Shown piece after piece: positions 44,206-46,004 of a stretch of 64,000 bases of DNA. A program made the translations under genes and the position numbers. Under the pieces are notes generated by a model, which worked only from the letters and a program-made list of their open reading frames with translations, was not told where the DNA came from and did no database searches. The stretch is taken from contig JALVZQ010000007.1 in the NCBI GenBank assembly GCA_027037535.1, positions 124,001 through 188,000 on the forward strand. The letters are read 5' to 3'. The DNA is from Acidilobaceae archaeon. GTDB taxonomy: Archaea; Thermoproteota; Thermoprotei_A; Sulfolobales; Acidilobaceae. Numbering within the stretch: the first letter of the stretch is position 1; each line of letters opens with the position of its first letter.

Positions 44206-44505
44206 ATGTTACATAAACTCAATAAAAGAGAACTAGTAGCCTATACACTACTCTGTAAGCACAAAAAGATAAACTATGGAGACGCCATAGACCTTCTAGC
44301 ATCCGAGCTCGTAATGACCAAGCGGACTGCTTCAAACATATTGCGTAGGCTAAAAAGACTGGGCCTTATAAAGGTGAAAATCGAGGATACAGGAATAATT
44401 GTAGAAGCCGAAGACATATGGAGAATACTTAACGACATGCTTGAGAGATACAAAACGGAACGACATAGAAGAGCACACGCCTTAGCGAAGAAAAAGATCT
44501 CGTAG
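44206..44505 (+). CDS. Small winged-helix transcription regulator
   Basis: This protein of about 99 residues has a winged-helix core: KINYGDAIDLLASELVMTKRTASNILRRLKRLGLIKVKIE, near residues 20-60, with TKRTASNILRRLKRLG as the recognition helix. A basic helical tail follows. I chose the ATG at 44206 because TTAATTATAA (44181-44190) is placed as a TATA box for a leaderless message; an ORF start at TTG 44179 would lie inside that box. The target is unknown. Confidence 0.65.
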   Translation: MLHKLNKRELVAYTLLCKHKKINYGDAIDLLASELVMTKRTASNILRRLKRLGLIKVKIEDTGIIVEAEDIWRILNDMLERYKTERHRRAHALAKKKIS

Positions 44506-44641: not shown

Positions 44642-44704
44642 GGGGTCAGGACTTAAAGGCCACATCATGACTTATATTCAGAGAGTACAGCCGTCCTCAT
44701 CCCC
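44642..44704 (-). ncRNA. Box C/D guide RNA targeting 16S helix 27 (sRNA-1)
   Basis: Minus strand: GGGG, C box ATGAGGA, 12-nt guide CGGCTGTACTCT, D' CTGA, 9-nt linker, C' ATGATGT, 12-nt guide GGCCTTTAAGTC, D CTGA, CCCC. The D guide is complementary to ACTTAAAGG of the conserved 16S stretch that I recall as E. coli 909-917. The D' guide is complementary, with a G-U pair, to GAGTACGGCCG at about 888-898. By the D+5 rule the predicted 2'-O-methyl sites are U912 and U891 (E. coli numbering). Two guides hitting the two sides of one rRNA helix is strong support. No clear TATA box is seen. Confidence 0.8.
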
Positions 44705-44867: not shown

Positions 44868-46004
44868 TTGAAGCTGTTCGAGTACGAGGCAAAGGAAATA
44901 CTTAAAAAATATGGCGTAAAAGTTCCCAAGTCGGTTCTTGTGAAGAAAGGAGAAGACCCTATAGAGAAAATGAAACAGGCAGGCCTAGAGCCACCAGTAG
45001 TAGTGAAAAGCCAGGTACTTGTCGCAGGAAGAGGTAAGGCCGGCGGCATCAAGATGGCAAAAACTTGGGATGACGTTAAGAGACTCGTAGACGAACTATT
45101 CGACAAACCGATAAAAGGGATAAAGCCCAGACTCCTCCTAATCGAGGAAGCAATCCCCCACGAAGTAGAGTTATACGTGGGAATGGTGATTGACAGAAGC
45201 GAGAGAAAACCTGTAATTCTAGCAAGCAAATATGGCGGAATGGATATCGAGGAAATAGCGAGAGAAAAACCTGAGAGCATTATTAGAGTACATGTTGATC
45301 CGTTTATAGGACTAAAAGGATACCAGGCTAGGCTAGTTGGAAAGAAGATAGGGCTTACAGGCAAAGCACTATCGAACTTCGCGAAGTTCCTAACAGCACT
45401 ATACAATATGTTCATGGAATATGACGGAGAACTCGCAGAATCTAATCCTCTTGCATTGGTCGGAGACGAAGTTATCCCTCTAGATGCTAGACTCATAGTA
45501 GACGACAACGCATTGTATAGGCATCCAGAGCTCGCAAAGGAGATACTAGAGGAGAGCGGAGAATATACGGAATGGGAGATAAAGGCTAGAAAGAAGGGAT
45601 TAGCCTTCGTAGAACTAGACGGTGACATAGGAATAATAGGGAACGGAGCAGGACTAACAATGACCACGATGGACCTAGTATACGAGTTCGGAGGCAAACC
45701 AGCAAACTTCCTAGACATAGGAGGCGGGGCAAGCGCAGAACTAGTAAAGACCGCTGTGAGCTTCCTTGTAGAATTCCCGAAGACCAAGAAGATATTCATG
45801 AACATATTCGGCGGAATAACAAGATGTGATGAAGTAGCAAAGGGCATCGTGAAAGCACTAGAGGAGCTAGGAAAGCTAGAAAAACCACTAGTAGTAAGAC
45901 TAGCAGGAACAAACGAGGAGGAAGGAAGAGAGATCCTAGAGAAACACGGTATTGAAGCATTTGTTGACCCAATAGAGGCGGTTAAACGCCTCATGGAGCT
46001 CTAG
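44868..46004 (+). CDS. sucC: Succinyl-CoA synthetase (ADP-forming) beta subunit
   Basis: This 378-residue ATP-grasp subunit binds nucleotide and, with SucD, couples succinyl-CoA cleavage to ATP or GTP synthesis. Motifs include the N-terminal [36 protein letters not shown] near residues 45-62, AESNPLALV near 190, and the subunit-interface [11 protein letters not shown] near 280 followed by [14 protein letters not shown]. It starts at TTG 44868, and no in-frame ATG nearby would preserve the conserved LFEYEAKE start. sucD follows after 16 bases. Confidence 0.95.

Follow-up and report, generated by a model that had tools for sequence, protein, structure and literature searches.

The 63 nt at positions 44642–44704 of the window (the whole 64,000-nt stretch of DNA that was analysed) raise the question of whether a short segment with the look of a box C/D RNA encodes a guide and, if so, which bases of the ribosome that guide would select.

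Architecture and genomic setting

Read on the minus strand from 44704 to 44642, the segment is GGGG-ATGAGGA-CGGCTGTACTCT-CTGA-ATATAAGTC-ATGATGT-GGCCTTTAAGTC-CTGA-CCCC, a box C/D sRNA core with all of its elements present, and every part named in the initial annotation (boxes C, D', C' and D, exact 12-nt spacers and GGGG/CCCC ends) is confirmed on this strand.

44642–44704, minus strand: whole box C/D sRNA gene, from the layout, the window scan and covariance model R1
44701–44704, minus strand: 5' arm of the terminal stem, GGGG; the stem covaries across the sRNA family
44694–44700, minus strand: box C, ATGAGGA, 6 of 7 bases matching RUGAUGA
44682–44693, minus strand: D' guide, the 12-nt spacer CGGCTGTACTCT, pairing with 16S 887–898; predicted target U891 (E. 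coli numbering)
44678–44681, minus strand: box D', CTGA, exact
44669–44677, minus strand: D'–C' linker, ATATAAGTC, 9 nt, varying in sequence and length among relatives
44662–44668, minus strand: box C', ATGATGT, 6 of 7 bases matching RUGAUGA
44650–44661, minus strand: D guide, the 12-nt spacer GGCCTTTAAGTC, pairing with 16S 909–917; predicted target U912
44646–44649, minus strand: box D, CTGA, exact
44642–44645, minus strand: 3' arm of the covarying terminal stem, CCCC

The boxes stand in the archaeal order C, D', C', D, the C–D' and C'–D spacers are 12 nt each where archaeal C/D sRNAs have spacers near 12 nt, alignment of the guides with the 16S rRNA of relatives puts the guide base opposite the target 5 nt ahead of D or D', and a 4-bp GGGG/CCCC terminal stem lies beside boxes C and D, with a predicted k-turn. 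Among the points counted against the dual-guide reading were the single departure from consensus in each of boxes C and C' and the fact that no TATA word could be established upstream of the window copy. Across the sRNA family, TATA-like words are most frequent at −30 to −40 relative to box C, where 13 of 59 members have one; no other 10-nt bin exceeds 6. The neighbours of the sRNA are a small ORF on the plus strand, which ends at 44505, and an ORF starting at 44868, which from its sequence we take to be sucC; the sRNA lies on the strand opposite sucC and within ∼2 kb of it in 10 of 15 sucC-bearing loci.

A strict C–D'–C'–D scan, run on the window in both orientations, returned 44642–44704 as its sole match, and no match arose when the window was simulated 60 times with a first-order Markov model. 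Covariance model R1 scores the sRNA at 69 bits (E 4e-21), a score that is not independent since the sRNA is one of the training sequences of that model. A search of Rfam release 15 with the sRNA gave nothing reaching the gathering cut-off, and SNORD52, which scored highest under permissive settings (20.9 bits, the cut-off being 45), was taken as chance. Among the Rfam families, snoPyro_CD (RF00095), sR41, sR17 and sR1 align weakly over their full length with the C/D frame of the sRNA, but these remain below gathering score and their guides do not correspond.

Guide complementarity to both strands of helix 27

The 16S gene of the source genome, an assembly of eight contigs, is cut by the end of contig C8 after ∼510 nt (L197, 299453–299961). 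BLAST with the 16S sequence of a relative located these first ∼510 nt only, and searches for the organism's own 16S gene by Rfam model and by motif did not find it. The helix 27 targets were therefore taken from the 16S sequences of relatives, with 38 genomes in the alignment and with E. coli numbers anchored on the known 907–926 primer site.

Against these sequences the D' guide CGGCTGTACTCT forms a 12-nt pairing with 16S 887–898 that includes two G–U pairs and places base 5 of the guide opposite U891, and the D guide GGCCTTTAAGTC forms nine contiguous Watson–Crick pairs with 909–917 and places its base 5 opposite U912. The two target segments are the two strands of helix 27. The 16S segment GGGGAGTACGGCCGCAA is identical in the aligned relatives except for one Sulfolobaceae-like genome (GGTCGCAA), and 909–917 reads ACTTAAAGG in most of them. 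The D target that the initial annotation placed at about 909–917 is accordingly present in relatives, and so is the D' target placed at about 888–898 with one G–U pair, the second G–U pair falling outside the 11-mer then quoted. The dual-guide C/D reading, with U891 and U912 as its predicted sites, likewise stands when set against the relatives' 16S sequences.

The two matches differ in weight. When G–U pairs are allowed, 11 per cent of shuffled guides equal the D match somewhere in 16S, and taken alone it is weak and not significant; only 0.3 per cent equal the D' match, which is significant. The case for the sRNA is therefore made by the D' match together with the adjacency of the targets, conservation and covariation, to which the 9-bp D match adds little by itself.

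Helix 27 is already known as a target region of C/D guides, since helices 3, 18 and 27 form the densest region of predicted C/D sites in 16S (PMC4644070). Across seven archaeal species, methylation occurs in clustered hotspots with no single site common to all (reviewed in PMC7994747). U891 and U912 are absent by name from the main archaeal papers, literature searches yielded no archaeal paper naming either, and U891 may also be on record in supplementary site lists. The D guide of Pyrobaculum calidifontis sR56 has 16S U894 as its predicted target in the numbering of that paper (PMC4644070, Table 3), and this base appears to equal E. coli U912, the predicted D-guide site of the window sRNA, given an offset of 18 inferred from the placement of A915 and G930 in helices 28 and 30 (PMC4644070). 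The D' guide of sR56, in contrast, is listed for G925 and G1358 and not for the 5' strand of helix 27 (PMC4644070). Coupled guides have been described at helix 18, where the dual-guide sRNAs Tte sR114, Pca sR28 and Sac sR115 resemble the present family in their C–D'–C'–D layout, in the proximity of their two 16S sites and in the retention of coupled guides across species (PMC4644070). The family described here differs from them in targeting helix 27, in its occurrence over a wide set of lineages and in a co-change of guide and target.

Distribution and variation of the family

Coupled guides followed by box D were found in 45 of the 229 genomes of the class, and the reversed-pattern control gave 0. 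A wider search, through 398 genomes of the phylum, matched 19 genomes in all, with 2 control matches, and placed coupled guides in 5 genomes of a single family that lies outside the class. Box C followed by the D' guide occurs in 56 of the 229 class genomes (controls 0), a few of which lack the remainder of the sRNA; two such strings (L163, L175) were left out of the member count for this reason. Model matches near E 0.01–0.1 in four genomes (G002, G004, G025, G192) resemble background and have neither a second guide nor a box D, and were likewise set aside.

In all, 59 distinct members were collected, and 38 of these were aligned (alignment A1). The guides are nearly invariant and make up the conserved blocks of the alignment, with the linker left free. 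The string GGCYGTACTC of the D' guide is present in every row, its Y being only C or T, either of which pairs with G894. Most members keep CTGA or CCGA boxes at a constant distance from the guides and the same base at position 5. Permuting the flanks among members 5000 times never gave terminal-stem pairing as good as that found within members (kinship ignored), and little closing stem is seen in many of the sRNAs of family f3.

Several variants depart from this pattern. Both guides are kept in four genomes (G035, G007, G186, G117) in which box D is not CTGA and has drifted to CTAG, GTGA or GAGA (L242, L247, L245, L248), and one of these four loci has an 11-bp GC closing stem. The sRNA of the Sulfolobaceae-like genomes G206 and G214 (L250 and L249; family f9) shares the D guide (CCTTTAAGT), again within a C/D frame, but its D' guide, AACTCCCCAG, pairs several nucleotides farther upstream, at about 16S 882–891; helix 27 is thereby matched again on both strands, by another pair of guides. 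One genome (G102) carries two copies (L186, L187) with a common D' guide and differing D guides. The D target itself varies (L056, L060, L061), reading ACTTTAAGG in G001 and G004 and ACTTACAGG in G025, and neither a compensated D guide in a C/D frame nor a good model match was found in these three genomes.

Introns interrupt 16S at ∼901, 908 and 919, positions that fall within the guide targets or adjoin them (L063, L064, L065, L068, L233), and introns at these positions have been published for Desulfurococcales (PMC4496867). The 908 intron is present in four genomes with no detected sRNA (G005, G006, G015, G064) and in 0 of ∼22 sRNA-bearing genomes, a comparison that includes readable 16S genes only and ignores shared ancestry.

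Co-change of guide and target at position 912

All seven genomes checked from genera g18 (G069, G070, G071) and g31 (G101, G103, G104, G105) have C912 in 16S, and their sRNAs carry TTGA where other members have TTAA, which places G opposite 912. In 17 genomes with U912 the facing base is A; by hand tabulation, guide and 16S base 912 thus match in 24 of 24 genomes compared. Given that the C912 genomes form one clade in a 16S tree of 38 genomes (support 0.988), the co-change from U to C represents a single evolutionary event. The register of the D guide to box D is canonical in g31, where the guide of G105 has two further mismatches to its target. In g18 (L171, L172, L173) the D-guide match is kept with box D 2–3 nt farther away, and methylation would therefore be predicted at A909 or C910, not at 912.

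Mechanism and alternative explanations

From the comparisons above it is very probable that 44642–44704 is the gene of an archaeal box C/D sRNA with two guides, predicted to methylate U891 and U912 of 16S. Once transcribed, the sRNA would associate with L7Ae, Nop5 and fibrillarin to direct 2'-O-methylation of these two bases on nascent 16S, the guide base opposite each of them lying five nucleotides ahead of D' or D. In the bound state the sRNA would keep the strands of helix 27 from pairing with each other, and it therefore probably acts before the helix forms; by analogy with other double guides, its release may then let helix 27 fold.

It is conceivable, if distinctly less probable, that chaperoning of helix 27 folding is the main function, with selection on the pairing and little importance attached to the exact base methylated. 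A chaperone role has been proposed for archaeal double guides (PMC4644070), and this explanation would accommodate both the g18 sRNAs, in which the D-guide match persists as the register of box D shifts, and the guides retained in G007, G035, G117 and G186 beside a degenerate box D. It does not readily explain why most members hold CTGA or CCGA at a constant distance from the guide with an unchanged base at position 5. A stronger version appears improbable: that the sRNA mainly gates the folding of helix 27, with pairing under stricter conservation than the methylated base, and that the sRNA has been lost where a 908 intron, next to the D-guide duplex, makes pairing compete with splicing.

The comparison of guides with targets covered 16S only, which leaves some room for guides that serve another RNA (23S, tRNA or mRNA) and match 16S secondarily, but the two guides match 16S segments 10 nt apart and the D guide tracks base 912, and such a target is very unlikely. 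A chance resemblance, in which an intergenic stretch happens to contain C/D-like boxes and 16S-like 9- to 12-mers, might draw on the ease with which shuffled guides reach the D match, yet it has a negligible probability in the face of conservation over many genera, zero control matches in the class, stem covariation and the co-change of guide and target; the recurrence of the coupled guides, the change at 912 and the empty simulations of the window refute it. The dual-guide sRNA with U891 and U912 as predicted sites is the preferred reading.

Implications

The window sRNA is a well-supported addition to a known and ordinary kind of RNA, and its family is absent from Rfam. The same pair of guides has been kept across many archaea of hot environments, and one guide has changed in step with the ribosome. 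Coupled guides over many genera, together with a compensatory change at the predicted target base, indicate that helix 27, near the decoding site, is under lasting selection for guided pairing, and the family offers a defined and testable system in which either methylation or chaperoning may prove to be the selected function.
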